Origin: Spirochaetaceae bacterium | GTDB lineage: Bacteria > Spirochaetota > Spirochaetia > Treponematales > Treponemataceae | Assembly (NCBI GenBank): GCA_017614995.1 | Contig: JAGAAX010000029.1 | Coordinates: 62,001 to 126,000 of the forward strand | Direction: 5' to 3' | DNA length: 64,000 nucleotides | Shown here: positions 7,576-63,563 of the stretch, one piece after another | How the letters are laid out: every line of letters begins with the position of its first letter | Numbering within the stretch: the first letter of the stretch is position 1 | The notes under the pieces: model-generated | Told to the model about the DNA's origin: nothing | The model's database searches: none | The model's input: the letters and a program-made list of their open reading frames with translations, nothing else | Translations under genes and position numbers: made by a program

Positions 7576-8486
7576 TGGGCAAAACCGTAATTTCAATGAC
7601 TGATGTAACGCGTGTCTATAAGATGGGCGATACAGAAGAGCACGCGCTCCGAGGCATAAGCTTTACTGTTTCTCAAGGCGAATTCGTCGCGATAATGGGG
7701 CCGTCCGGCTCGGGCAAGTCTACATGCATGAACATGATTGGCTGCCTTGACCGCCCGACAAGCGGAATTGTCGCAATTGACGGCAGAGAGACTGACAAAA
7801 TGAACGAACGCGAGCTTGCAGAGCTTAGAAACAAGACTGTCGGCTTTGTCTTTCAGCAGTATCATTTGATTCCGTCTCTTACGGTGGTTGAAAACGTAAT
7901 GCTTCCGCTGCGCTATCAGAAAATCGAGAAAAGCGAGCGTCTGCCGCTTGCAGAAGAAGCGCTTAAAAAGGTTTCGCTTGTCGGCAAAATGGACTACCGG
8001 CCGCACGAGCTTTCTGGCGGACAGAAGCAGCGTGTTGCAATAGCGCGCGCACTTGTTACAAGACCCAAAATTATTCTTGCAGATGAACCTACCGGTGCGC
8101 TTGACAGCGAAACTGGCAGACAGATAATGGCGCTTTTCAACGAGATTAACAGCGGCGGCACAACAATCGTGATTGTTACGCACGATCCGCGCGTCGGTGC
8201 TGCAATAAGGCGGTGTATTCACATTTTTGACGGACAGATAAAGGCTGATGTTATGCAGACACCTGTGCCGTTTTCAGGTGATTCATTTGATTCGGAAATT
8301 CAGCCTGAAAAACCGAAAGCAGTGCCGTCCGGGCTTTTGGCGCGCACCCAAATACAGCCGCGCGTACAGCCGGCTAAACCCCGCGCAGCACCAGTAAAAG
8401 AGCAGGCATCTGAGCAGAACATGCCTGATTTAGGTTCGCTTCCGCCCGCCGCGCGCAATGCGTATTTAAACGGAACAATCTTATGA
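7575..8486 (+). CDS. MacB/LolD-type ABC transporter ATPase
   Basis: Cytoplasmic ATPase of the efflux complex. It shows Walker A GPSGSGKS (about residue 38), a Q-loop in FQQYHLIPSLTVVENV, signature LSGGQKQRVAIARAL, Walker B IILADEPTGALD and the H-loop IVTHD. The ATPase core ends near residue 225; about 75 further residues form a Pro/Ala-rich tail (QPRVQPAKPRAAPVK) not typical of the family. One-base overlap with the adaptor gene and four-base overlap with the permease gene mean a tightly coupled operon. MacB usually fuses ATPase and permease; here they are separate genes. Confidence 0.92.
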   Translation: MGKTVISMTDVTRVYKMGDTEEHALRGISFTVSQGEFVAIMGPSGSGKSTCMNMIGCLDRPTSGIVAIDGRETDKMNERELAELRNKTVGFVFQQYHLIPSLTVVENVMLPLRYQKIEKSERLPLAEEALKKVSLVGKMDYRPHELSGGQKQRVAIARALVTRPKIILADEPTGALDSETGRQIMALFNEINSGGTTIVIVTHDPRVGAAIRRCIHIFDGQIKADVMQTPVPFSGDSFDSEIQPEKPKAVPSGLLARTQIQPRVQPAKPRAAPVKEQASEQNMPDLGSLPPAARNAYLNGTIL

Positions 8487-9670
8487 TAGAAGATTTTATT
8501 TCAGCCTTGCAGAATTTTGCGCGCAACAAGACAAGAACGCTTCTCTCGCTTCTGGGCGTAATTATCGGCGTTGCGTCTGTCATCGTAATTACAAGCATGG
8601 GCGCAAGCTCTACGCAAGAAATTCAAGACACATTCGGTACGTCGGGGCTTGATATGGTAAGCGTAGGTTCCGGCTTTATGCGGCGCGGCAGTTCAAGCTC
8701 TACTTTAGTCTTTGATGAAGCTTTTAGAGAAGACCTTTTCGGTTCTGTTTCAAATATAAAGCACGTCTGGTACAAAAACAGCTTTAACGCGACAATCGCA
8801 ATTGACGACACAAGTTCAAGCATAAACTGCGCGGCAATTGAGACCGGCTATCTTGAAGCCTACAACTTTTACCTTGAATCAGGCTCTTTCTTCAATGTAA
8901 CAGACAACGAAGAAGGAATGCAGAAAATCATTTTGAATCATGCTACGGCAGAGTCGCTTTTTCCAAAAGGCGATGCGGTTGGCAGCCATGTGATTGTAGT
9001 CTGCAACAACATTTCGTTTGGCTTTGTGGTGTGCGGCGTGCTTGCAGAGCAGACTACTGGCATGGAAAACGGCGCGGCATTTGTTCCGCGCGGATTTTAC
9101 TCAAAAAAGATTTCGCCGAATCCGCCGGCAGCGTCTGTTATTGTTCAGGCTGTTGCCGCAGATAAGACGCCGGCTCTTGTCACAGACATAACAGAATACT
9201 GCACAAACAAAACAGGCTCGTCTTATTCGGTCAATGTGTCGTCTATGCAGACCATGATTGACCAGATGAGCGAGATTACAAATTCACTTAGCGTAATGCT
9301 TGCTGGCATTGCGGCAATTTCGCTTTTGGTTGGCGGCATTGGCATTATGAACATAATGATTGTTACTGTAACCGAGCGCAAGCAGGAAATCGGTATACGC
9401 AAAGCTTTGGGGGCTTCGCCTTTCGACATAAGGCGGCAGTTTTTGGTTGAGTCTGCAAGCATAACGCTCATAGGCGGTGCAATCGGCATTATAATCGGTG
9501 TGCTTATAAGCTTTGCGGTGGAATATGTAAAAGGCTCTTCGTTTATAGTGAACATAAATGCCTGTGTTATAGCCTTTGTGTTCTCTATGTTCGTCGGCAT
9601 ATTTTTCGGGCTGTGGCCTGCAATACGCGCGTCAAAGCTTGACCCTGTTATCGCTCTGTCCGGCGAATAA
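8483..9670 (+). CDS. MacB/FtsX-type ABC transporter permease
   Basis: Membrane subunit of the efflux system. An N-terminal cytoplasmic helix plus first membrane span (TLLSLLGVIIGVASVIVITSMG) is followed by a large periplasmic MacB-core domain (about residues 45-265) and the FtsX domain with three more spans, including LLVGGIGIMNIMIVTVTERKQEIGIRKALGAS, the hallmark cytoplasmic loop. The length of 395 residues is normal. The ATG lies inside the ATPase stop (ATGA). The substrate cannot be read from the sequence; MacB-type pumps export macrolides, peptides, lipoproteins or siderophores in other bacteria. Confidence 0.92.
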   Translation: MIEDFISALQNFARNKTRTLLSLLGVIIGVASVIVITSMGASSTQEIQDTFGTSGLDMVSVGSGFMRRGSSSSTLVFDEAFREDLFGSVSNIKHVWYKNSFNATIAIDDTSSSINCAAIETGYLEAYNFYLESGSFFNVTDNEEGMQKIILNHATAESLFPKGDAVGSHVIVVCNNISFGFVVCGVLAEQTTGMENGAAFVPRGFYSKKISPNPPAASVIVQAVAADKTPALVTDITEYCTNKTGSSYSVNVSSMQTMIDQMSEITNSLSVMLAGIAAISLLVGGIGIMNIMIVTVTERKQEIGIRKALGASPFDIRRQFLVESASITLIGGAIGIIIGVLISFAVEYVKGSSFIVNINACVIAFVFSMFVGIFFGLWPAIRASKLDPVIALSGE

Positions 9671-50433: not shown

Positions 50434-52542
50434 GTGGCAGAGAATAAAGGTTTGCGTGTTAAGCTCGCGGCAAAGCTTTTGATTATGTATCTTGCTGTAG
50501 GAGCTACTGTAAGCGTATCTATTGGAACAATTTCTTATAGAACAGCCGAAAAGGCAATGTCAAAGAATGTATACGATAATATGGACGCACTTGCAACTGA
50601 CGTAGCACATCAGATAGATGCAATCAATAAGCGCCATTTTCAGACTATGCATGTTCTAGCAGAGCTGAACATAATTAAAGACGAGAATGTTTCGCTTGCA
50701 GACAAGCAGAAAGAGATTGTAGGTTCAAAATCTTGCTTTGGCGCAAACTGTATAGACATAGCTTTTTATGACGCTAACGGCGACGCCCTTCTTGCAGACG
50801 GAAGAAAAATCAACTTTGCAAACCGTCCTTACTTCCAGGAGGCTTTTGCCGGTAAAGATTATGCTTCTGACCCGAAATTCAGTACCGTTACAAACAGCGT
50901 TCTTCAGCATTACAGCGTTCCTGTTTACAATAAAGACCGCAAGGCAATCGGTGCAATTGTTATGGTAATTGAGGGTAATACAGCTCTCAGCACTATTGAA
51001 AAAATTGACTTGGGCGGCGGAATGCATCCGTCTATTTTGAACTGGGCAACTGCAACAACTATTGCAAATGCAAATGCGGCTGAAACAGAAAAATCAGAAG
51101 AAGAGGGCGGTGCAAAACTTGACGAAAATGAAGGTCTTGGACTTGTTCTTTCAAATATCTTTCAGGGAAAAGAAGGTGTTTCAGACTTTGTAGACCCGAA
51201 TATTCATGTGCATCTTATTGCTGCCTACAAAAAAGTACCTGATTCAACCTGGACAGTCTTTGCCGTTGCTCCGTATGATATACATTTTGCTGCTCTTACA
51301 GGAACACGAAAAAAATCTGCGCTGTTTATCGGCATAGCGGTCGCCATTTCTGCTATTATTATCGGTGTATTGATAACTATGCTTATCAAGCCGCTAAAGA
51401 CAGTAAAAGAGTCTGTTGCCGTAATCTCAAGCGGAAACGCAGACCTTACACAGCGTATTCCGCCTGTTTCAAACGATGAAATCGGTGACGTTGTATCAGG
51501 TTTCAATGCATTCGTTGAAAAGCTTCATGGAATTGTTGCAAACTTGAAGAGTTCAAAGGAAGACTTGATTTCTGTAGACTCTGACCTTCAGTCGAGCACA
51601 CAGGAGGCGTCTGCTTCAATTACAGAGATTATTTCTCATATAGAGAACGTAAACGGTCAGATTGAGACACAGGCAAATTCTGTTCAAGAAACTGCCGGTG
51701 CTGTAAACCAGATTAGCTCTAACATAGAATCTCTTGAAGGAATGATTTCTTCTCAGGCAACTTGTGTTACACAGGCTTCTACGGCTGTCGAAGAAATGAT
51801 TGGAAACATCAATTCTGTAAATGTTTCAGTCAACAAGATGGTTGACTCGTTCAAGCAGCTTGAGCTTCATTCTAATGAAGGTTCTGAAAAGCAGAACAAT
51901 GCCAACGAACAGATTATGCAGATTAACGAGCAGTCAAAAATGCTTCAGGATGCAAATGCCGCCATTGCAGGTATTGCCGAGCAGACAAACCTTCTTGCTA
52001 TGAACGCGGCTATTGAGGCTGCTCATGCAGGTGAAGCCGGTAAGGGTTTTGCTGTTGTTGCGGACGAAATCCGTAAACTTTCAGAGACTTCTACAGACCA
52101 GTCTAAGAGAATCGGTTCTGAGCTTAAAAAGATTCAGGAAACAATTCAGGATGTTGTTAATGTTTCAAAGGAAACAAATATTGCGTTCTCAGACATTGCG
52201 TCTAGTATTAATGAAACAAGCCAGATTATTGAGCAGATTAAGCACGCAATGGAAGAGCAGCAGGCAGGTTCTAAGCAGATTATTGATGCGCTCGGCTCTA
52301 TGAACAACTCAACTTCAGAAGTCCGCATGGCATCTTCTGAAATGATGAACGGAAACAAGCACATTCTTTCAGAAGTTCAGAAGCTTCAGAATGCTACAGA
52401 AGTGATGAAAGAAAGTATTCAGGAAATGCACGCCGGTGCTGACCGGATTAACAGGACTGGTTCTTCGCTTTCTACTATTTCAGGCAAGGTTGCCGACAAC
52501 ATCAAGAAAATCGGTACAGAAATCGACCTTTTCAAGGTTTAA
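50434..52542 (+). CDS. Methyl-accepting chemotaxis protein with dCache sensor
   Basis: 702 residues starting at GTG after TCTAGGAGC. One membrane span at about 15-35, a periplasmic dCache-type sensor (about 40-285: [32 protein letters not shown]), a second span at about 290-312, a HAMP linker, and the MCP signalling hairpin with [20 protein letters not shown] and [14 protein letters not shown] at the tip. The ligand is unknown; dCache sensors often bind amino acids or organic acids. It would control the chemotaxis machinery of the periplasmic flagella. No CheA/CheW here. Confidence 0.93.
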
Positions 52543-52616
52543 GACTGAAGCGCGCCTGCGCACACTTTTGTTGTGCGCCTTTAGGTGTGCAGTTTGAAAA
52601 GCCTGTCAATACGAAC

Positions 52617-52656
52617 AAAAAGCCCTCTCAAGCGCTTATGCTTTGGAGGGCTTTTT
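52617..52656. terminator. Bidirectional terminator between MCP and M48 genes
   Basis: AAAAAGCCCTC (52617) pairs with GAGGGCTTTTT (52646). A-run and T-run on both sides serve both converging genes. Confidence 0.88.
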
Positions 52657-52679
52657 GTTTAGCCGGAGTTATTCCGGGG

Positions 52680-53504
52680 CTATTTAGCCTGTTTTGTTGC
52701 TTCAAGGTACAGCGGATAAACTGTTTCAGCTATTACCTGCAAGTCTTTGATTCGGGTTGCATGAGAAGGGTGGGTGCTCATAATTTCAGGTACGCTTGTA
52801 CCAGAAACTTCTTCCATCTTCTGCCAGATGGTGACTGCTTCATGCGGATCATAGCCTGCGCGCGCCATCAGTTCTGTTCCGATGTGGTCAGCTTCTGTTT
52901 CATGTTTTCTTGAAAATGGAAGCCCGAGCGTAAACTGTGCTGCAAGCCCCAGAAGCTGTGTTCCGGTTTCTTTTACACCGAGAATTGCGGCTGCTGCAGA
53001 AACACCAAGATTCTGCAAAGCTTCCTGGCTTGCTCTTTCGCGGCTGTGCTCTTTGAGTGCGTGCGAAATTTCGTGGCCCATTACAGCAGCAAGCTCACCG
53101 TCAGTAAGCTTAAGTGAATCGATGATGCCTGTGTAAACTACAATCTTGCCGCCCGGCATACACCATGCGTTTATGGTGTCTTCAGTAATTACGTTTACCT
53201 GCCAGTCCCAGTTTACTGCATCTGTACGGAAAACCGTTGTCTGTGCAATCAGCTTTTTCGCAATTTTCTGAACACGCTGAAGAGTAGCCGGGTCTTTGTT
53301 GAGTGTTCCGGCTTTTTTTGCTTCGGCAAGAACCTCTGCATAAGCCTCAACCGCACTCTGGTTCATTTCCTCTTCGGAAACAAGCATAACCTGCTTTCTG
53401 TCAGCTCCAACATTTCCTGCTGCTGTAGTTGTTGTCATACAGCTTGTAAGGAAAAACAATGGGAATAAAATTAATGTAAAGATATAAAAATATTTCTTGC
53501 TCAT
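52680..53504 (-). CDS. M48-family metalloprotease lipoprotein
   Basis: Zinc protease of the M48/BepA-LoiP group, periplasmic. A signal peptide with lipobox LTSC (cysteine at 22), a linker, then the catalytic HEISH at 144-148 with the third ligand Glu near 204 in HETEADHIG. WCMPGGKIVVYTGI and THPSHATRI are family features. 274 residues. BepA-like proteases check outer-membrane protein assembly; that role here is inference. Confidence 0.92.
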   Translation of the reverse strand: MSKKYFYIFTLILFPLFFLTSCMTTTTAAGNVGADRKQVMLVSEEEMNQSAVEAYAEVLAEAKKAGTLNKDPATLQRVQKIAKKLIAQTTVFRTDAVNWDWQVNVITEDTINAWCMPGGKIVVYTGIIDSLKLTDGELAAVMGHEISHALKEHSRERASQEALQNLGVSAAAAILGVKETGTQLLGLAAQFTLGLPFSRKHETEADHIGTELMARAGYDPHEAVTIWQKMEEVSGTSVPEIMSTHPSHATRIKDLQVIAETVYPLYLEATKQAK

Positions 53505-53582
53505 ATCTCAAATTTATCACATTTTTGTGCAGTTTTCCAGTAATTTTTAATAATTGTTTGGCATGGCTCACTATTACCGGTG

Positions 53583-54347
53583 CTAAAGTTGTGCCGCAAT
53601 CCACTTGGCAACGCCGTCATTTTCGTTTGAAAGACAGATTTCGTCTGCAATCTGCCTTACTTCGTCAATGGCGTTTTCCATGGCAATTCCTTTTCCGCAA
53701 AGCTTGAGCATACCGATGTCGTTAAAATCGTCGCCGAATGCGGCAATCTTTGAAGGCGGCATCTTTAAGTGTGCGCACAAAGCTTCAATCGCCTTTTCTT
53801 TTGTAGCGTCTTTTTTGCTGAGCTTATACCAGGGAATGTCTGAAAAGGGCAGAAAGTCTATGTTGTCTATGCCCACGCTTGAGGCAATTTTTGTCACTTT
53901 TTCTTTGTCCAGAGTTTCAATGCACATTTTCATGCAGGTTTCGTTAAAGTCCGAAAAATCGTTGAAAGTCCAGAATTTGTCGCCGAGCTCTTCCTTTGAG
54001 TTTGAATAAAGCCCTTTTTCGTTGTCTACGCTTATTATAGCGTCCGGTCCGCAAATTTCAAAAGTTGCCTTGATAAGCGTGCGTATTTCTTCAACAGAAA
54101 AGACGCAGTTGTAGATTTTTTTGCCTTTAAAAGTGACCATGCCTCCGCCGTTCGTTATAAGCACGTCCGGTTTCAGCCCGCCAAGAAATTTTAAGGCATT
54201 TACTCCAGCCCGCGCTGTTGAAATGCCGAACATAACGCCTTTTTTCTGGGCTTTGGCAATTACTTGTTTTGAAAAATCTGAAATTGATTTGTCGTTGCGG
54301 AAGAGGGTTCCGTCTAAATCTGAAAGAATTAAAGATATGTTTTCCAT
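53583..54347 (-). CDS. Cof-type HAD-superfamily phosphatase
   Basis: Cytoplasmic HAD hydrolase with a C2B cap. It shows ILSDLDGTLF (nucleophile Asp), GISTARAG, TNGGGMV, the ATKEKAIEAL region, and AAFGDDFNDIGML with the metal Asp pair. 255 residues. Members dephosphorylate sugar phosphates, flavin or pyridoxal phosphates; the substrate here is unknown. The ATG at 54347 is preferred over a TTG two codons upstream. Confidence 0.88.
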   Translation of the reverse strand: MENISLILSDLDGTLFRNDKSISDFSKQVIAKAQKKGVMFGISTARAGVNALKFLGGLKPDVLITNGGGMVTFKGKKIYNCVFSVEEIRTLIKATFEICGPDAIISVDNEKGLYSNSKEELGDKFWTFNDFSDFNETCMKMCIETLDKEKVTKIASSVGIDNIDFLPFSDIPWYKLSKKDATKEKAIEALCAHLKMPPSKIAAFGDDFNDIGMLKLCGKGIAMENAIDEVRQIADEICLSNENDGVAKWIAAQL

Positions 54348-54386
54348 ATTCAATTATGAAAAATAATTCAGATTTATGCAATAGCC

Positions 54387-55415
54387 CTATTTTATAATAA
54401 AAAGCTTATCAACAAAATCAAATTGAATTATATGGTCATAAAAAAAGACATTTCCAAGATTATTCAGTTTCATCATGTGAAGCTGGGCACCTTTTCCAAA
54501 ACCAGAACCTTCAATTGTAGAATAAGCACCTTTTATGTTGCTGTAGGTAACGCCGCCAATCTGAATATTATCATAAGTCTGCATTACGCGCGGAGTAACA
54601 GGCACATCGTCATTGTATGTCAATCCATAAGTTGAATAATCATCAATATCATAATCCTGTTTGCCGTCTCCAATATTATGGCGTGGAGTAAAACAATAAT
54701 TGCCGGTGTCAATCATCGCCAGTTCCTGCTGCCCGTTGTAAGTAAAATTAATCAAAATTTCGCTGTTCGCGGTCTGTATAAAAGGAATTTCAGTTCCGTC
54801 GAGTTTTTCATCATTAAGAATCATATAATTGTTGATATAATCAAAAGTAACTCTGTCATAATTCATTAAATAATCAGCTCCAAGAACACCGTCATAGCTT
54901 TGCTTTTGCACTGAATCATATCTAAGAGAAATGCCGTTGATGTAAAGCTTTGCAAGATAATTCAAATTATAGTTTGCCCATTCATTTTTTAAGAAACTGC
55001 TGAATTCTTCGTCTGTCGGGTGCTCGTTTGAAATTTCAGGCTCATTCTTTCTTAAGTCTTGAATAATGATTTTCATAAATTCATCATCTGAAAGGTTTGC
55101 CTTTTCAATAAATGAAGAAAAATACCAGTTTCTTGTACAGCCGGAATCTACCATTACATAAATATGTCTGTCTGAATCAAGCTCAATAACGGGTTTTCCT
55201 AAACATTCTGAATAGTTCATTGTAAAGGGAATTCTGGTCTCTGTTCTTTCGCGGGTCATTTCTTCAACAGCTTTTGAAGTGTCGAATTTTCTTTGAGTTA
55301 ATTGCTCGGTCATTTTCTGCCCGTCATAACTGATTTTTTCCGGGCTGGTTGGGTCTTGTACACATGAGCATAGAATTACAATTAAACATAAAACAATCAG
55401 ACTTTTTATTTTCAT
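54387..55415 (-). CDS. Lipoprotein with two retropepsin-like aspartic protease motifs
   Basis: A signal peptide with a lipobox-like ILCSC, then 320 residues. The first half has VMVDSGC (Asp near 90) and later GVLGADYLMNYDRVTFDY; the second half has LAMIDTGNYCF (Asp near 236) and ends FFYDHIIQFDFVDKLFIIK. Each D(S/T)G followed by an LG/FFYDH and a strand-rich finish fits a retropepsin-like half, so the protein may fold as a pepsin-like pair. Proteolytic activity is inference. AT-rich; no clear operon. Confidence 0.72.
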   Translation of the reverse strand: MKIKSLIVLCLIVILCSCVQDPTSPEKISYDGQKMTEQLTQRKFDTSKAVEEMTRERTETRIPFTMNYSECLGKPVIELDSDRHIYVMVDSGCTRNWYFSSFIEKANLSDDEFMKIIIQDLRKNEPEISNEHPTDEEFSSFLKNEWANYNLNYLAKLYINGISLRYDSVQKQSYDGVLGADYLMNYDRVTFDYINNYMILNDEKLDGTEIPFIQTANSEILINFTYNGQQELAMIDTGNYCFTPRHNIGDGKQDYDIDDYSTYGLTYNDDVPVTPRVMQTYDNIQIGGVTYSNIKGAYSTIEGSGFGKGAQLHMMKLNNLGNVFFYDHIIQFDFVDKLFIIK

Positions 55416-55483
55416 TTTTTTTCCTGAATTCTATTTTGTCTTAATTTCGAGTTTTTTAAAATCGTGCTTTTTAGAGGAAATCA

Positions 55484-55561
55484 GGTCATTGAGCGTAGTC
55501 GAAATGACCTCTTTTACTGGCAGACTTTCCGCTTATCGTGGCTTCGACTACGCTCAGCCAC
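55484..55561. repeat. Pair of palindromic repeats with core TGAGCGTAGTCGA
   Basis: First copy at 55484-55509: GGTCAT-core-AATGACC hairpin (core 55490-55502). Second, opposite orientation, at 55538-55561: GTGGCT..AGCCAC around TCGACTACGCTCA. The arms differ but each is self-complementary. They are the main feature of the 375-base gap before the binding-protein gene; the rest (55562-55757) shows no gene. Confidence 0.85.
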
Positions 55562-55790
55562 CGAAATATTTAAACTCGATATTCGGGCTATTCTGATAGA
55601 ATCCCGGTCTTTAAGTCAACCGCTTTTGGAAATAATCTGAAAAACAGAAAAAATTGCGCCTAAGTCAAGAACCGGCTTAGAGGATTTAGTTTTAATGCTT
55701 AAAGTACCCATTGAAGTTTTAGGGGAAAACTGCCGATAAACTATAGATAAAAGAAAGTTGGACATTTATTCAGTTTTAAGGAGTTATTTC

Positions 55791-56606
55791 ATGAAGTTTA
55801 AATTCAGGACTGCTGTGTTCCTACTTCTTTTGTTTATACCGTTTGCTGCCAGTGGTCAGAATTATTCAGCAGAAACAGGCGATATTGAAGGTATTCTTAA
55901 AAGAGGAGAACTTCGGGTTGCAATTACAGCGGTAGATCAGCCGCCTTTCTATTTTGTTGACAAAAACGGAAAATTAACCGGATACGACATAGATCTTGCC
56001 GCTAAAATGGCAGCAGAACTTGGGGTAAAACTTGTAATAACACGCGATGCTCCGGCTTTCAATGATCTTGTAACATTAGTAGCTTCGGGCAGGGCAGACC
56101 TTGCTGTTTCAAAGTTGAGCCGCACGCTTTCAAGAGCAAAAACCGTTAAGTTTTCTACACCATACATGACATTCAAACAGGGTTTGTTGTTTAACCGGCT
56201 TCAGCTTGCTAAAGTTGCGAGCGAAGGCGAAGTAAACACTTATGTCAGAAACTATAAGGGAACAATCGGCGTTATAGCAAAATCTTCTTATGCAAATTAT
56301 GCCAAAACGAATTTTCCGCACGCACAGATAAAAGAGTACCCCACATGGGAAGCTGCCGTACAGGCGCTTAGAAATGGTGACGTTCTTTCTGTTTACCGTG
56401 ACGAGCTTGAAATAAAGAGGGTTCTTTCTTCAATTCCGCAGGCTTCTCTTACTTTAAAACCGCTTTACTTTACAGATTTAACTGATCCGATAGCAATTGC
56501 TGTGAAAAATGAAAATTCACAGCTTCTTTACTGGGTCAACATTTTCCTTGAGAATCAGCAGAAAATGACGGCTGATGAAATTCTTTCAATCTACGCAAAT
56601 CAATAG
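55791..56606 (+). CDS. Periplasmic amino-acid-binding protein (solute-binding family 3)
   Basis: A signal peptide without a lipid-attachment cysteine (AVFLLLLFIPFAASGQ) and a family-3 fold: GELRVAITAVDQPPFYFVDK, KLTGYDIDLAAKMAAELGVK, LVASGRADLAVSKLSRTL, and YPTWEAAVQALRNGDVLSVY. 271 residues, typical for glutamate/aspartate/glutamine binders. ATG 55791 follows AAGGAG. No ABC permease or ATPase adjoins; the next gene, 13 bases on, is the transporter-cyclase fusion, so it may deliver ligand to that protein. Confidence 0.9.
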   Translation: MKFKFRTAVFLLLLFIPFAASGQNYSAETGDIEGILKRGELRVAITAVDQPPFYFVDKNGKLTGYDIDLAAKMAAELGVKLVITRDAPAFNDLVTLVASGRADLAVSKLSRTLSRAKTVKFSTPYMTFKQGLLFNRLQLAKVASEGEVNTYVRNYKGTIGVIAKSSYANYAKTNFPHAQIKEYPTWEAAVQALRNGDVLSVYRDELEIKRVLSSIPQASLTLKPLYFTDLTDPIAIAVKNENSQLLYWVNIFLENQQKMTADEILSIYANQ

Positions 56607-56619
56607 GAGAGATGTCCGT

Positions 56620-59600
56620 ATGTTCGGTAAAATACTAAAGAATCCAATCACTATTTTCATTTCCGTAGTACTGGGAATTTTATTCGGCTTTTATGAAAAA
56701 GAAATAGCATTGTCGTGGGGCGTAATCGGCGACATGTATCTGAATCTTTTTCAGATGACAGTTATTCCTATTCTTGTAACTTCTATTGTTGCAAGTCTTG
56801 CCCAGCTTATGAAAGACAAGAATGCCCGCAACCATATTCTTAAGATAATTTTAGTATTCTTAATAATGCTTGTCGCAGTTTCTGTTTTTGGCACATTGGC
56901 TGGTATTGTCGGACGCCCGGGCGAAAATTTAGGCGAATCTACGACAGAAGTTCTCGACAACATAATTAAAGACTCAGAAGATACTTCGCAGAACGAAATT
57001 GCGCTTTATGATGCCTCTAAAGATGTTGCCACAAAAAAATCTTCAGTAGTTGATTTCTTTGTAAACATTATTCCTGCCAACATTTTTAAGGCATTCAGCA
57101 ACGGCTCAATTCTTCAGCTTGTATTTTTCAGCATAATCTTTGGAATAGCCATTGGCTTTTTAAGTGAAGATTCTTCGTCGCGGCTTATAAACGCGGTTGT
57201 ATCGCTGAAAGATTCGTTCCAGAAGCTTATAAGCTGGACAATGTACGGTCTTCCTGTTGGTCTGGTTTTCCTTATGGGAAAACAAATTGCGCAGGTTGGT
57301 GTAGAAATTCTTCTGGCAATGGTAAAATTCATTGTTGTTTTTTACCTTGCAGGCTTGGCTGCAATGCTTATTGGCACTTTAATAATCTGGCTGAAGTCTG
57401 GAATCAAAAATCCATTGACTGTTCTAAAAAAAGTTTTAGACCCGATTATTATTTGTTTTGCAACAAGAAACAGCTTTGCTGCTCTTCCTTCTTCGATTTC
57501 TGCATTGAAGGGGCTTAACTACAACGCCAACACTGTAGACCTTGTATTTCCTTTAGGACTTACTGTGCTGCGCTTTGGCAACATAATGTATTTTGCTCTT
57601 GCGTCATGTTTTGTTGCCCAAATATACAATACGGCGCTGGCAGTACCGACTCTTGTGCTTATAGTTGTCGGCTCGCTTCTGGCTGGTACGGCTACAGCGG
57701 GTGCATCTGGTCTTTTGACACTGCCGATGATTTCGCTGATTCTTGACCCGATCGGTCTGCCGGTTGAATCTATTCTCATTGTTTTTATGGCAATTGACTC
57801 TTTGATTGACCCGATGAGAACGCTGCTCATTGTTTATGTAAATATTGCGACAACTGCTCTTGTTTCTGCAAAGGGAAAGAATGAGCCGCAGGAACAGCTT
57901 GAAGATTCTACTACAACAGAGAGCAGCTCTGTACGGCAAAATGTTCTGCCGCTTGTGCAGCCACAGCCGCAGAAAGCATATTCTGTTCCAGAAAAGAAGG
58001 CTGCCGGGCTTGAAAATTATTCTATAGCACAGCCGGCACAGGTGCGTCCTGTATCACACAAAGCAGCTCCGCCCAAGCACTCAGACGGCTTCAAAGTCAA
58101 AATCCGTGATGCTCTGGTTATTATAAACACACTGCTTCTTGTAGCAACTGCCTCAATTATTATGCGCATAAATTCGCGCGGAACACAGGATTCAGTTTAT
58201 TCAGTTTCTACAAATTTGGTTACAGAAATTCTCAAGTCTGTAGACACAAAGCTTGAGGCATATTACACACCGGCATCGCAGGAAATTCACAGCATACTTT
58301 TCCATTATTGGAACGAAGACACATTCCATTTTCAGAATGACAAAGAAGCGGCGCTTGACTACTTTATGGAAATTCTGAACACGCACAAAGAATTTGCGAT
58401 GGTTTACTTTGGAGATACCAAAGGCAACCTGATAATGGGCCGCCGTATGCCGGACGGTTCGCTTACACGCCGCTACATTACAAGAACGGCTGATACTGTA
58501 AGCACAAAATACATTCACGAAAACAAAAGCTATAGCGCAACATACCCGAACACAGTAGAAAGCGCGGCGACAGGCTATGACCCGAGAACGCGCGGCTGGT
58601 ACAAAAAGGCTGTAGCGCAAAAGCGTACGATTTGGACAAACGTCTATATTTTTGCCACAGACAATATGCCGGGCTTCTCATGTGCATCGCCTATATATGA
58701 CGAGAGCGGAAGCCTGATTGGTGTCGCCTGTATCGACATTGGTATCCGCGACCTTTCGCTTTATCTTGGAAACATCTCGACAACAGAACATTCGCGCCTT
58801 TTCATTTATGACAATGACAACCAGATTATTGCCAAGCCGATGAAGGCAGATGACCCGATTGATACGCTATTGAATGTTTATCCGGGCGCAGACGGAAGCA
58901 ACACTTACAGCATGAAGAAGGTTGACGACAGCTCAGACCCGATAATTGCCGAAGCTTTTAAGAACAGCAGCGGCAGAGAAAATGCCGAGGGCATTTATTC
59001 GTTTACTCTGGATAACAAGAACTATTTCTGCAAAGTTGATTCAATGACGCTTGATTCAGACCTTTCAATGAATATCGGCATGGTTATTCCTGATGAGGAC
59101 ATAATGGGCAGCGTCTACAAGAACAACAGAACTGTTCTTATGATTTCAATGATTGTTATTCTTATAGCGATTTTCATTTCTATAGTGATTTCTTCGCTTA
59201 TCTCAAAGCCTATGAAGACTTTGTCTGATGAGATGAACAATATAAGGAATCTTGCTATTGAAGAAGATGACGAGGAGATTGATTCAGGTATTCAGGAAAT
59301 AGACACAATGGTTTATTCGTTCCAGGGAATGAAACAGGGACTTATAAACTTTAAGAAATATGTTCCGGCTGACCTTGTTTCGCTTTTAATTCAGAATAAC
59401 CAGGACGCAGAAATAGGCGGAAAGAGACAGACGCTTACGCTTCTGTTCTCTGACATTGAGAATTTCACCGGCATTACAGAGCAGACAGACCCTGAAGAAA
59501 TGATTAACCGCCTTTATGTTTATTTCTCTCTTCTTGCCCACACAATTACAGACAACAAGGGAACAATCGACAAATACATCGGCGATTCTATCATGGCATT

Positions 59601-60210
59601 CTGGGGTGCGCCTGTTGATATAGACGTGAAAGTACATGCAAAACTTGCCTGTCAGTCGGCTCTCACCTGCCAGATGCAGGGCTTTAATCTGTCAAATTCT
59701 TGGATAAGAGAAGGTAAGCAGAAATTCCGCACAAGATTTGGTATTCATACCGGCGAAGTTGTAGTCGGAAATATGGGTTCTGACGAGCGCATTAACTACA
59801 CCGTTCTCGGTGACAACGTAAATCTTGCAAGCCGTCTTGAAGGGCTCAATAAGTATTACGGCACAGAAATCATAGTCAGCGGCGCAACACACAGCCTTGT
59901 AAAAGATGATTTTGAATTCCGTATTCTTGATAAGATTACGGTAAAAGGCAAAACCCAGCCGATTTTCATCTATGAGCTTCTTGCCGAAAAAGACAAGCTG
60001 GATCACAAAATTCTTAAATATTATAGAATTTACGAGATGGGCTTAAAGTATTACTTAAGCGAAGACTGGGATAATTGTATCAAGTACATGTCAGATGTTA
60101 TAAGGCATTTGGACGATAAGGCAGCACGTGTAATAAAAGAACGGGCTGAAAACTTTAAAGTTAATCCTCCGGTAAATTGGACAGGCGTATATGCATTCGA
60201 CAAAAAATAA
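56620..60210 (+). CDS. Symporter-like domain fused to dCache-HAMP-class III adenylate cyclase
   Basis: 1196 residues. 1-420: dicarboxylate/amino acid:cation symporter (GltP/DAACS) fold, with RNSFAALP at 283-290 (hairpin 1), LRFGNI at 317-322 where NMDGT is expected, and D393, D397, R400, T401 of the last helix kept. 425-490: linker with PQPQK. 498-515: membrane span, then a dCache domain (RGWYKKA near 658). About 838-862: span, then HAMP. 930-1110: cyclase, with metal Asp 945 and 989, adenine-type Lys 985 and Thr 1061, Asn 1068 and Arg 1072, so likely active on ATP. AGGAGA before ATG 56620. Partners: binding protein upstream, racemase overlapping downstream. Confidence 0.9.
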   Translation: MFGKILKNPITIFISVVLGILFGFYEKEIALSWGVIGDMYLNLFQMTVIPILVTSIVASLAQLMKDKNARNHILKIILVFLIMLVAVSVFGTLAGIVGRPGENLGESTTEVLDNIIKDSEDTSQNEIALYDASKDVATKKSSVVDFFVNIIPANIFKAFSNGSILQLVFFSIIFGIAIGFLSEDSSSRLINAVVSLKDSFQKLISWTMYGLPVGLVFLMGKQIAQVGVEILLAMVKFIVVFYLAGLAAMLIGTLIIWLKSGIKNPLTVLKKVLDPIIICFATRNSFAALPSSISALKGLNYNANTVDLVFPLGLTVLRFGNIMYFALASCFVAQIYNTALAVPTLVLIVVGSLLAGTATAGASGLLTLPMISLILDPIGLPVESILIVFMAIDSLIDPMRTLLIVYVNIATTALVSAKGKNEPQEQLEDSTTTESSSVRQNVLPLVQPQPQKAYSVPEKKAAGLENYSIAQPAQVRPVSHKAAPPKHSDGFKVKIRDALVIINTLLLVATASIIMRINSRGTQDSVYSVSTNLVTEILKSVDTKLEAYYTPASQEIHSILFHYWNEDTFHFQNDKEAALDYFMEILNTHKEFAMVYFGDTKGNLIMGRRMPDGSLTRRYITRTADTVSTKYIHENKSYSATYPNTVESAATGYDPRTRGWYKKAVAQKRTIWTNVYIFATDNMPGFSCASPIYDESGSLIGVACIDIGIRDLSLYLGNISTTEHSRLFIYDNDNQIIAKPMKADDPIDTLLNVYPGADGSNTYSMKKVDDSSDPIIAEAFKNSSGRENAEGIYSFTLDNKNYFCKVDSMTLDSDLSMNIGMVIPDEDIMGSVYKNNRTVLMISMIVILIAIFISIVISSLISKPMKTLSDEMNNIRNLAIEEDDEEIDSGIQEIDTMVYSFQGMKQGLINFKKYVPADLVSLLIQNNQDAEIGGKRQTLTLLFSDIENFTGITEQTDPEEMINRLYVYFSLLAHTITDNKGTIDKYIGDSIMAFWGAPVDIDVKVHAKLACQSALTCQMQGFNLSNSWIREGKQKFRTRFGIHTGEVVVGNMGSDERINYTVLGDNVNLASRLEGLNKYYGTEIIVSGATHSLVKDDFEFRILDKITVKGKTQPIFIYELLAEKDKLDHKILKYYRIYEMGLKYYLSEDWDNCIKYMSDVIRHLDDKAARVIKERAENFKVNPPVNWTGVYAFDKK

Positions 60211-60958
60211 ACGCGCCATCGGCATTGTCGGCGGTCTTGGGCCTTATGCCGGTTTGGACTTAGAGCGCAAAGTCTTTGACAGTGTAGAGGCAAACAGCGA
60301 CCAGGATTATCCTGATGTAATAATGATTTCTGTCTCGCGGCTTATTACGGACAGAACTTATTACATCATGCATCCTGAAACAGACAATCCGTGTACGGGA
60401 ATTGAATATGTCATACAAAAGCTTGCAGACGCAGGCGCAACGCATATAGCTATTCCATGCAATACTGCCCATGCTCCAATTATCATGAATCAGGTAAGAA
60501 AATTCATTGAGATAAACGGAATTGATGTTACTCTGCTGAACATTGTTGAAGAAACTCACAAATGGATGAAAGAGAACTGTACAAGCAAAGAAGCAGTGCT
60601 TTATGCAACGCAGGGAACATATTTTTCCGGCGTGTATAACAGCTTTTTTGACAACGATAAAACCTTCAATATTGTTGAGCCGGATGACGACGACAAAAAG
60701 CTTATCTGGGACGCAATTTACAGCCGTCAATTCGGTATAAAAGCCTGGTCAAATCCGATAAAAGAGCAGGCAATTGAAAATTTTAAGATTGTTACAGAAA
60801 AAATGCTTGCTAAAGGCTACGATACATATATTATGGGCTGCACAGAAATTCCGCTTGCTATGGGCCGCCTGCGTATGCCTATAAAACTGATTGATCCAAC
60901 CAAAATTCTTGCCCAGGCACTTATCAAAGCCGTCTGTCCCGAAAAGCTTAGAAAGTAG
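60191..60958 (+). CDS. Aspartate/glutamate racemase family protein
   Basis: Two-cysteine, cofactor-free racemase fold. It has AIGIVGGLGPYAGLD, the first catalytic Cys in AIPCNTAHAP (C90) and the second in IMGCTEIPLAMG (C217), both present. 255 residues, normal for aspartate racemases. It starts inside the last codons of the cyclase gene (20-base overlap), so the three genes form one operon. It suggests that the ligand, or a competitor, is a D/L acidic amino acid; glutamate racemase for peptidoglycan is the alternative, but MurI proteins differ in motif. Confidence 0.88.
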   Translation: MHSTKNKRAIGIVGGLGPYAGLDLERKVFDSVEANSDQDYPDVIMISVSRLITDRTYYIMHPETDNPCTGIEYVIQKLADAGATHIAIPCNTAHAPIIMNQVRKFIEINGIDVTLLNIVEETHKWMKENCTSKEAVLYATQGTYFSGVYNSFFDNDKTFNIVEPDDDDKKLIWDAIYSRQFGIKAWSNPIKEQAIENFKIVTEKMLAKGYDTYIMGCTEIPLAMGRLRMPIKLIDPTKILAQALIKAVCPEKLRK

Positions 60959-61038
60959 TGCAGAAATTCGATAGTTTACTCTCATTGATTAATAAAGCTT
61001 GTGTGTAAGTGAATAAACTACATAATCTATAATTTTCA

Positions 61039-61047
61039 TGTTATACT
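61039..61047 (+). promoter_or_regulatory. Putative extended -10 promoter of hsdR
   Basis: TGTTATACT: an extended TG and TATACT about 33 bases before the hsdR ATG. No clear -35. Confidence 0.4.
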
Positions 61048-61079
61048 AAAAATCAAGATTAGTAACACAAGGTTATAGA

Positions 61080-63563
61080 ATGAGCGATATTCTTGATATT
61101 CATCAGATGTCAGAAGAAGATATTAAACTCCAGTACATTACGCCAGCTTTAACAGCAAAGTGGGATATTAAAAAGATTACAATGGAGACTTCGCCTGTAA
61201 ATAATTTCACTGATGGTAAAGTCCGAATTAAAGGTAATATTCCAAGCCGCGATAAAGGCAAACGCTGTGATTATGTTCTCTGGTACAATAAAGGAACACC
61301 GCTCGCAATTGTAGAAGCAAAAGACAATAACAAAACTTCATCTTATGGAATGCAGCAGGCTATAAGCTATGGAATGATGATGAATGTTCCATTTGTTTAT
61401 ACTTCTAATGGTGACAGCTTTTTTGAACACGATTTTACTACTGGGCTTGAAAAAGAGTTCCCGCTTTCTGAATTTCCGACTGCTGATGAGCTTTTTTCAA
61501 GATGGAAAGGCGTAGATGCAACAAAAATTATTGAAGTTGAAAACCGCGAAAGATACGCTATAGATGGAGAATCAAAAGTCTATGATGTTCCTCTTTGTTT
61601 TGAAGAGAAGCTTATGAACACGCCGTTCTATTCAGGAGCAGGAACATATCCACCGCGTTATTACCAGCGGAATGCAGTAAACAGAACACTTGAAGCAATT
61701 GCCAAAAAACACAACCGCATTCTTATTGCTATGGCAACTGGAACAGGAAAAACTTATACAGCTTTTCAGATTGTATGGCGTCTTATTGAATCCGGCACAA
61801 AGAAGAAGGTTCTTTACCTTGCAGACAGAAACAATCTTGTAGACCAGACAATCAACGGTGATTTTAAGCCGCTTGAAAAAGTAATACATAAGATTAATTT
61901 CCAGAAAGAAGACAAAGCAAAAATTTCTTCTTATCAGGTTTATTTTGCACTTTATCAGCAGTTGGATTCTTCAAAACACAAGGGCGAAGAAGTAGAAGAA
62001 ACAGAAGAAGAAATTGAAGCAGAAGTTTCAAAGTATAAAGATTATTTTGAACCAGACTTCTTTGATCTAATTATTGTAGATGAATGTCACCGCGGTTCAG
62101 CAAAGGCTGATTCACGCTGGCGAAAGATTCTTGATTATTTTAACGGCGCAACTCAAATCGGCATGACCGCAACACCAAAAGAAACCAAATATGTTTCCAA
62201 TATAGACTATTTTGGAGAACCTGTTTATCAATATAGTCTTAAGCAGGGCATAGAAGACGGTTTCCTTGCGCCGTTCAAAGTAGTAAATGTTCATACAAGT
62301 ATTGATGACTGCTGGCGTCCAAAGAAAGGGCAGAAAGATATTCACGGAAACGAAATTGAAGACCGCGAATATAATCTTTCTGATTATGACTACAATATAA
62401 TCATTCAAGACAGAATTGATGAAGTTGCAGCAGAAATAACAAAATATCTTAAAGAAACAGACCGCTTGTCAAAAACAATAGTATTCTGCCCTACAGAGGC
62501 TGCGGCAGACAGAATGCGCATTGCACTGAATAATTTGAACACAGACATGATTCTTCGTGATAATCAGGGCAATGTAAAAGAGCAGTATGTAGTGCGCATA
62601 ACCGGAAGTGATAAATACGGAAAAGATAAACTTGATTACTTTATTTCTGTTTCTCAAGCCTATCCTGTGATTGCTACAACATCAAAGCTTCTTTCTACTG
62701 GCAGTGACTGCAAAATGGTAAAGCTCATTGTCCTTGATGAGCTTATAAATTCAATGACTGAATTTAAGCAGATTATCGGCCGCGGAACACGGCTTAGATA
62801 TGATGAAGGAAAAACTCATTTTACGATTATGGACTTTAGACGGGTAAGCCGTCTTTTTGCAGACCCGGACTGGGATGGCGAAATTGAACAGGACGATGAG
62901 TTTGGTGCTTCGGCAGGCTCAGCCACCGTTGAAGGAAGCAAAAACTCGGACACTGAGCGTAGTCGAAGTGTCGAAAATGACGCTCACCGCACAGTTCAGG
63001 TTGTAGGAAAAGGCGGCGTAAAAGTTAAAGTTCTTCAACGCATGGTAAGCATTTATGATACAGACGGAAAACTCTTAAAGCAGGAATCTATTGAAGATTA
63101 TACAAAAGAAAGCATCATCGGCACATACCAGACTCTTGAAAACTTTATTCAGACTTGGAATGAAGAACAGAAAAAAGAGGTTATCCGCAATATGCTCAAA
63201 GACCTCGGTATAGACCTTGAGCTTATTAAGAAAGAACAGAACATGACTGACGTAGATGACTTTGATTTTATCTGCCATATTGCATTTAACCAAAAGCCAC
63301 TCACAAGACGAGAGCGCGCAGAGAAAGTTAAAAAGCGTGATATTTTTGGAAAATACGGAGAAGCCGCAAAAGAAGTCATCAATGCTCTTTTAGATAAATA
63401 CGCCGAACTTGGCATCTATGATATTGAATCAACAGAAATTCTAAAGCAGAATCCTTTCACAAAGTATGGAAAACCAGCCCGCATTGCAGCCTTGTTTGGC
63501 GGCAATGACAAATACAGAGCTGCCCTTCGCGAACTGGAAAGTGAATTATATAAGACAGCATAA
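61080..63563 (+). CDS. hsdR: Type I restriction enzyme, R (restriction/translocase) subunit
   Basis: 827 residues. Nuclease domain at the N-terminus with D64 and VEAK (E79, K81), a PD-(D/E)xK site. Helicase/translocase: YYQRNAVNRTLEAI, Walker A ATGTGKT at 219-225, DECH at 334-337, GMTATP, IVFCPTEAAADRM, and IIGRGTRLR. Then a C-terminal helical domain for the methylase. Residues about 622-637 come from an in-frame palindromic repeat (62949-62972). Shorter than EcoKI HsdR, within the range of HsdR-like families. hsdM and hsdS would be expected beyond the window. Confidence 0.93.
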   Translation: MSDILDIHQMSEEDIKLQYITPALTAKWDIKKITMETSPVNNFTDGKVRIKGNIPSRDKGKRCDYVLWYNKGTPLAIVEAKDNNKTSSYGMQQAISYGMMMNVPFVYTSNGDSFFEHDFTTGLEKEFPLSEFPTADELFSRWKGVDATKIIEVENRERYAIDGESKVYDVPLCFEEKLMNTPFYSGAGTYPPRYYQRNAVNRTLEAIAKKHNRILIAMATGTGKTYTAFQIVWRLIESGTKKKVLYLADRNNLVDQTINGDFKPLEKVIHKINFQKEDKAKISSYQVYFALYQQLDSSKHKGEEVEETEEEIEAEVSKYKDYFEPDFFDLIIVDECHRGSAKADSRWRKILDYFNGATQIGMTATPKETKYVSNIDYFGEPVYQYSLKQGIEDGFLAPFKVVNVHTSIDDCWRPKKGQKDIHGNEIEDREYNLSDYDYNIIIQDRIDEVAAEITKYLKETDRLSKTIVFCPTEAAADRMRIALNNLNTDMILRDNQGNVKEQYVVRITGSDKYGKDKLDYFISVSQAYPVIATTSKLLSTGSDCKMVKLIVLDELINSMTEFKQIIGRGTRLRYDEGKTHFTIMDFRRVSRLFADPDWDGEIEQDDEFGASAGSATVEGSKNSDTERSRSVENDAHRTVQVVGKGGVKVKVLQRMVSIYDTDGKLLKQESIEDYTKESIIGTYQTLENFIQTWNEEQKKEVIRNMLKDLGIDLELIKKEQNMTDVDDFDFICHIAFNQKPLTRRERAEKVKKRDIFGKYGEAAKEVINALLDKYAELGIYDIESTEILKQNPFTKYGKPARIAALFGGNDKYRAALRELESELYKTA
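62949..62972. repeat. Palindromic repeat, core TGAGCGTAGTCGA, inside hsdR
   Basis: GACACT-gagcgtagtcga-AGTGTC, in frame, encoding DTERSRSV within the linker between helicase and C-terminal domains. Same core as the two intergenic copies at 55484 and 55538. Confidence 0.88.

Follow-up and report, generated by a model that had tools for sequence, protein, structure and literature searches.

Within the window, a stretch of 64,000 nucleotides from a Spirochaetaceae genome assembly (GCA_017614995.1), three closely packed genes raise the question of why a periplasmic binding protein should be encoded together with a carrier joined to an adenylate cyclase and with an amino acid racemase. A sequence-only reading of the locus had proposed a transceptor-like amino acid sensor that sets cAMP. 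The genes, with all the domains assigned to them below, occupy positions 55791-60958 of the plus strand, and the open reading frames yielded the same coordinates as that reading, with the domains assigned by Pfam. The first gene (55791..56606) encodes a family-3 periplasmic binding protein (SBP) of 271 aa (SBP_bac_3, 3.4e-24) and is followed, after a 13-base gap, by a gene (56620..60210) encoding an SDF-dCache-class III cyclase fusion of 1196 aa, identified by its Pfam domains and by orthologues in 21 further genomes. The third gene (60191..60958), which overlaps the fusion by 20 bases, encodes a predicted cytoplasmic aspartate-type racemase of 255 aa (Asp_Glu_race, 2e-18; TIGR00035 above its cut-off). 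As already noted in the earlier reading, neither an ABC permease nor an ATPase adjoins the operon in the window; the neighbour of the SBP is the SDF carrier instead. Known RNA families gave no match within 52500-62000. The gene at 54387-55415 encodes a protein of 342 aa with an N-terminal signal sequence and aspartic-protease-like motifs (VDSGCT and IDTGNY) that lacks a Pfam match, while downstream of the operon lies a gene for a type I restriction R subunit (61080-63563 and onward), with apparent further restriction-modification genes beyond it.

Conservation of the operon in treponemes

A scan of public genomes yielded 22 loci that encode all or part of the fusion with 65-97% identity, spread over 21 genomes besides that of the window. 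These genomes are titled Treponema or uncultured Spirochaetaceae/Spirochaetales, and many of them derive from rumen samples. The search for the same fusion and its neighbours bore out a triad conserved across treponemes: the SBP gene lies 9-14 bases upstream of the fusion in all 20 loci that extend far enough, and in 17 of the 18 testable loci the racemase gene overlaps the end of the fusion, the overlap usually being 20 bases. The sole exception is L026, with no close racemase elsewhere in its genome (G441, 83% complete, matched by coordinates). The SDF clade to which the window carrier belongs is present in 26 of the 274 genomes of the window's family, nearly always as a fusion. Comparison with the nearest species indicated strong purifying selection on the SDF, dCache and cyclase domains (dN/dS about 0.04-0.06). 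An assembly or frameshift artefact is ruled out by the 21 other genomes, the conserved gap and overlap, and this selection. The same observations, together with the unfused four-gene versions described below, leave a negligible probability that the arrangement reflects faulty annotation or neighbours brought together by chance.

Components of the putative sensor

The SBP possesses an N-terminal hydrophobic signal peptide, and no lipobox was seen on inspection of its sequence. Among its relatives of known structure are many amino-acid binding proteins, and its relatives keep the arginine of SR..R and the aspartate of YRDE. The racemase is closest to the Pyrococcus aspartate racemase PhAspR (1jfl, 1e-30), with residues C90, C217, R55 and K184 corresponding to C82, C194, R48 and K164 of PhAspR and kept in all relatives checked. 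In PhAspR, R48 and K164 contact the side-chain carboxylate of the substrate. The presence of C90 and C217, along with the Asp_Glu_race match, confirms the earlier assignment as a two-cysteine Asp/Glu racemase. The cysteate racemase CuyB was considered and rejected, the score of 140 bits falling below the NCBIfam cut-off of 190. A signal peptide was not found in the racemase sequence, and the enzyme is therefore predicted to act on the ligand after uptake; the earlier suggestion that it could shift the D/L forms of the external ligand is thus abandoned.

Residues 11-416 of the fusion (56650..57867) form a domain of the SDF/SLC1 transporter fold (Pfam SDF, 1.3e-70). Its sequence matches the aspartate transporter 9bgz and GltPh, the best PDB match being an ancestral aspartate transporter, and the fold predicted in an SDF-only model of middling confidence (pLDDT 57) follows GltPh throughout (374 residues, Z 32.2, rmsd 4.1). 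In GltTk, Na1 is bound via the D405 carboxylate and Na3 via T92, S93, N310 and D312 (GltPh numbering), and the NMDGT motif moves when substrate binds (PMC5110648). The GltPh ligands T92, S93, N310, D312 and D405 are replaced in the window SDF by M, L, L, F and N, respectively, and in the alignment to GltPh the motif LRFGN (residues 317-321, 57568..57582) takes the place of NMDGT, with Arg318 at the M311 position. Throughout the main clade, N310 is replaced by L, G, A or C, M311 by Arg, D312 by a hydrophobic or aromatic residue, and D405 by Asn, so numbered after GltPh; the replacement of N310, D312 and D405 extends to all SBP-linked SDFs of this clade. The substrate ligands D394 and R397 (D397 and R400 in the window) are invariant in the main clade, and R276 is also kept. 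Canonical SDFs of spirochaetes, aligned alongside, have NMD and D405 intact. More divergent SDFs were kept out of the main clade, namely those of G402 (L064), G676 and G721 (L152, L153) and the second proteobacterial SDFs.

The label of symporter given in the earlier reading is doubtful, because the carrier is devoid of the side-chain Na+ ligands. Judged from these residues, the main-clade SDF is most likely a Na+-independent transporter, in which Arg318 may, as a hypothesis, play the role of the lost cation. A Na+-independent SLC1 homologue still carries substrate, and the signature of the H+-coupled ExtH comprises a hydrophobic residue at 92, L311 and N405 (PMC12668577). The window SDF shares the D405N replacement and the hydrophobic residue at 92 with such Na+-uncoupled or H+-coupled homologues; however, position 311 is Arg rather than Leu, and with N310, M311 and D312 all replaced it falls outside the published SLC1 signatures (PMC12668577).

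A cytoplasmic linker (421-488, 57880..58083) connects the carrier to the rest of the fusion and is variable in sequence, with a mean identity of 21% compared with 72-85% elsewhere in the protein. Hydropathy peaks mark transmembrane helices preceding (495-518, 58102..58173) and following (835-866, 59122..59217) a periplasmic dCache sensor, placed at about 523-834 (58186..59121) from the Pfam dCache_1 match (639-758, 1e-16) and a structural model. The domain composition read earlier from the sequence was recovered by Pfam for SDF, dCache_1 and Guanylate_cyc (1.6e-25; class III adenylate cyclase domain, 937-1113, 59428..59958). The HAMP domain of that reading reduces to a HAMP-like linker (857-908, 59188..59343) with a sub-threshold match (E 0.11, 13.3 bits against a cut-off of 25).

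Amino-acid receptors of the dCache_1AA type are described by the motif [YFWL]x4[RK]xW[YFW]..[YFW]..D (PMC11237719), which the window dCache presents as Y653, R658, W660, Y661, Y676 and D706 (58576..58737). The motif is complete in 22 of 22 sequences checked and in every further complete relative, and is absent from the chemoreceptor encoded near the operon at 50434-52542. The model of the full-length fusion is poor (mean pLDDT 49), its dCache part alone being usable; this part is nearest to the amino-acid chemoreceptors Mlp24 (Z 17.5) and PctA (Z 15.5), and also to PscC. The complete motif and the fold, both of which it has in common with PctA/Mlp24-type receptors (PMC11237719), make the dCache domain a predicted amino-acid sensor. 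It differs from those receptors in its cyclase output and in being tethered to a carrier.

The closest solved relative of the cyclase domain is CyaB (3r5g, 2e-31). All six catalytic residues (the metal aspartates D945 and D989, K985 and T1061 at the adenine site, N1068 and R1072) are present and invariant in relatives. Lysine and threonine at the base-recognition sites are the pattern of class IIIb adenylate cyclases. The genome encodes several cNMP-binding proteins, which could read cAMP, and gave 12 class III cyclase matches. According to the sequence-only reading, both the carrier and the SBP would present the ligand to the cyclase. The parts are indeed conserved together; however, the dCache domain with its full motif offers a more direct route, and since it adjoins the cyclase the role of the carrier is more plausibly that of a co-sensor or supplier than that of a direct driver. 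A rigid mechanical push through the linker between SDF and dCache is unlikely, given its variability. SDF proteins form trimers, and dCache domains and class III cyclases form dimers. The resulting mismatch of symmetry in the fusion (56620-60210) counts against the perception unit proposed below.

The module in other spirochaetes and on proteobacterial plasmids

Outside the treponemes with the fusion, the SBP, SDF, dCache-cyclase and racemase are encoded as separate genes in G036 and G421, and the same unfused set as in G036 recurs in two genomes of a distant family, G092 and G081. In G081, the set is spread over two contigs that overlap in cyclase sequence, the second of them bearing the cyclase end and the racemase. 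An order-wide search added about 19 genomes of family f5, where the four genes are adjacent and unfused in most loci examined, although sometimes in a different order. Families f18 and f73 contributed one genome each with all four genes, the cyclase of f73 (L151) having diverged motifs, and f19 one genome with SBP, SDF and dCache-cyclase in which no racemase was seen. SBP and SDF stand alone in G020 and G679, and neither an SBP nor a racemase adjoins any of ten SDF loci from outside the clade. Two tandem SBP-like genes followed by a more divergent SDF were observed in G676 and G721 (L152:4982-6611, L153:2-1574).

Fusion of the carrier to the cyclase was also detected within f5, where G879 and G900 encode SDF-dCache-cyclase proteins of 1199 and 1229 residues. 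A tree of 43 SDF domains indicated at least two origins of the SDF-cyclase fusion (parsimony, 2 changes), and constraining all fusions in these 43 domains to a single clade was 268 log-likelihood units worse (AU p 2e-6). The fusion of G287 was omitted from this test because trees give unreliable positions to long rows, among them its degenerate domain and the second proteobacterial SDFs. The gene row of G287 consists of an SDF, an SBP, a protein of 1235 residues that joins a degenerate SDF to the dCache-cyclase, and a racemase (both SDF-bearing genes within L046:3772-7479 and 8295-9635). The degenerate copy matches Pfam SDF with 60 bits and lacks the D394, R397 and R276 residues, which makes transport by it unlikely; the coexistence of an intact and a fused degenerate SDF suggests mixed carrier oligomers. 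That the same partners became fused more than once independently provides good evidence of a joint function, while leaving its mode unspecified.

Other rearrangements were observed in f5. Several SDFs (L142:6422-8290, L143, L144, L147 and L148) carry a C-terminal extension of ~130-190 residues resembling one SBP lobe, a likeness that consists of a sub-threshold SBP_bac_3 match and visual similarity; a fusion of SBP and SDF is suggested by this piece. In G913 (L146:8762-10810), a dCache chemoreceptor matching the amino-acid motif stands beside SBP, SDF and racemase, in the place held by the cyclase in relatives, a possible swap of output.

Outside the spirochaetes, four plasmid records, from Gemmobacter aquarius, Paraburkholderia phymatum, Paraburkholderia sp. 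PGU19 and Cupriavidus sp. P-10, lead both the SDF and the SBP searches. The Gemmobacter and P. phymatum plasmids carry the order SBP-SDF-racemase-SDF without a cyclase, and in P. phymatum the cassette (L103, pBPHY01) is embedded in a type VI secretion cluster, flanked by a ClpV-like AAA gene on one side and TssK/DotU genes on the other. These P. phymatum genes, Bphy_5989-5992 in T6SS-b, have been termed intriguing, and a sensing role has been proposed for the symporters (PMC8356804). The cassette resembles the window operon in its related SBP, its SDF with Arg at 311, its racemase type and its gene order; it differs in the lack of a cyclase, in a second, more degenerate SDF and in its setting within the type VI secretion cluster.

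Proposed mechanism and comparison with known systems

Taken together, we consider it somewhat better than an even chance (about 0.55) that the operon constitutes a perception unit for acidic amino acids. In the periplasm, the SBP would bind an aspartate-like amino acid and pass it to the SLC1-fold carrier, which would no longer use Na+ and in which Arg318 may substitute for the lost cation. Covalently tethered to the dCache receptor, the carrier would sample the ligand as a co-sensor, while the dCache domain would read the amino acid and drive the class III cyclase, such that the cAMP output would be set by ligand binding to both carrier and dCache. Once imported, the amino acid would be processed by the cytoplasmic racemase. 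We infer in this scheme the identity of the ligand, the docking of the SBP on the SDF, the movement of substrate by the SDF and the change of cAMP with ligand. The perception unit is favoured because the four parts remain neighbours in many spirochaete families, whether joined or separate, because the fusion is repeated, and because the f5 SDFs bear a piece resembling an SBP lobe. Further support comes from the replaced Na+ ligands beside retained D394 and R397, the complete motif and chemoreceptor-like fold of the dCache, the invariant catalytic residues and the R48/K164 equivalents of the racemase, and also from the ten SDF loci outside the clade without such neighbours and the cNMP-binding proteins of the genome. 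It is also favoured because DctA/DcuS and DctB/DctA/DctS (PMC6978683) and Ks-Amt5 (PMC5764959) each show one of its principles separately. The transceptor-like sensor proposed earlier is largely upheld by the conserved triad and at least two fusions, except for the external action of the racemase, and its symport is doubtful.

The cyclase-free cassettes of the proteobacterial plasmids and the SBP-SDF pairs of G020 and G679 count against a perception unit. They fit an uptake cassette, in which SBP, SDF and racemase would provide an importer and the first metabolic step, beside an autonomous dCache-cyclase sensing the same amino acid, the fusion fixing stoichiometry and location only. TRAP transporters illustrate that SBPs can supply elevator carriers (PMC9352664), the linker is variable, and the dCache-cyclase is separate in most relatives outside Treponema, so that the carrier may be unneeded for cyclase activity. 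However, the repetition of independent fusions points to a physical role in signalling, as does the fused SDF of G287, for which transport is improbable, and we regard the uptake cassette as an unlikely, if serious, explanation. A further possibility, that the SDF binds ligand without translocating it, as Ks-Amt5 does for ammonium (PMC5764959), and serves purely as a sensor module of the cyclase, draws on the missing NMDGT motif and the missing side chains that bind Na1 and Na3 (PMC5110648), and on the presence in G287 of an intact SDF beside the degenerate fused one. Against this stand the cytoplasmic racemase at nearly every locus, which suggests that the ligand enters the cell, and the transport retained by a Na+-independent SLC1 homologue (PMC12668577); a non-transporting receptor thus appears improbable. 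It can be proposed only tentatively that the main clade represents a new class of SBP-fed, Na+-independent SLC1 transceptors, in which Arg at M311 replaces the coupling ions and carrier occupancy directly gates the tethered cyclase, with other outputs in the proteobacterial cassettes. The literature searched, which included few subscription papers, mentions neither a fusion of SDF and cyclase nor an SDF carrier that depends on an SBP, and it gave no account of an SLC1 clade with Arg at 311, its own SBP and a connection to a cyclase.

The earlier statement that no bacterial system of this arrangement has been described needs qualification in view of DctB/DctA/DctS and DctA/DcuS (PMC6978683) and of the P. 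phymatum set (PMC8356804). In Bacillus subtilis, DctB/DctA/DctS forms a tripartite transporter-sensor complex (Graf 2014, as reported in PMC6978683). Like the window operon, it unites an extracytoplasmic co-receptor, an SDF-family transporter and a membrane sensor; it differs in consisting of separate proteins with a histidine kinase, in responding to C4-dicarboxylates through the transporter DctA, and in having no racemase. DctB is likened here to the SBP in its role as a co-receptor. In the window, the binding protein, SDF carrier and Cache-type sensor are likewise encoded together, with a cyclase where DctS has a histidine kinase. By analogy, the unit most likely works in the manner of DctB/DctA/DctS, in covalent form and with a cyclase as output. 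The E. coli DctA/DcuS complex also pairs an SDF transporter as co-sensor with a membrane receptor, and transport is reportedly dispensable for its sensing, but it is unfused, lacks an SBP, and signals C4-dicarboxylates through a kinase (PMC6978683). The ammonium sensor kinase Ks-Amt5 shares with the window fusion the covalent joining of a transporter fold to a signalling enzyme and the combination of a trimeric carrier with a usually dimeric output module (PMC5764959), whereas its fold is that of Amt, its output is a kinase, and it has neither an SBP nor a separate dCache domain before the output. The window unit provides a case for the question, raised in PMC4821796, of whether and how class III cyclases use their membrane parts as receptors. 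It also bears on the role of the SBP-SDF-racemase genes within a type VI secretion cluster (PMC8356804) and, through an SLC1 clade devoid of Na+ ligands and provided with its own SBP, on the uncoupling of a much-studied fold from sodium. The nearest transporter-receptor units described so far consist of separate proteins and use kinases for signalling, whereas the unit described here is covalent, conserved, accompanied by an SBP and wired to a cyclase.
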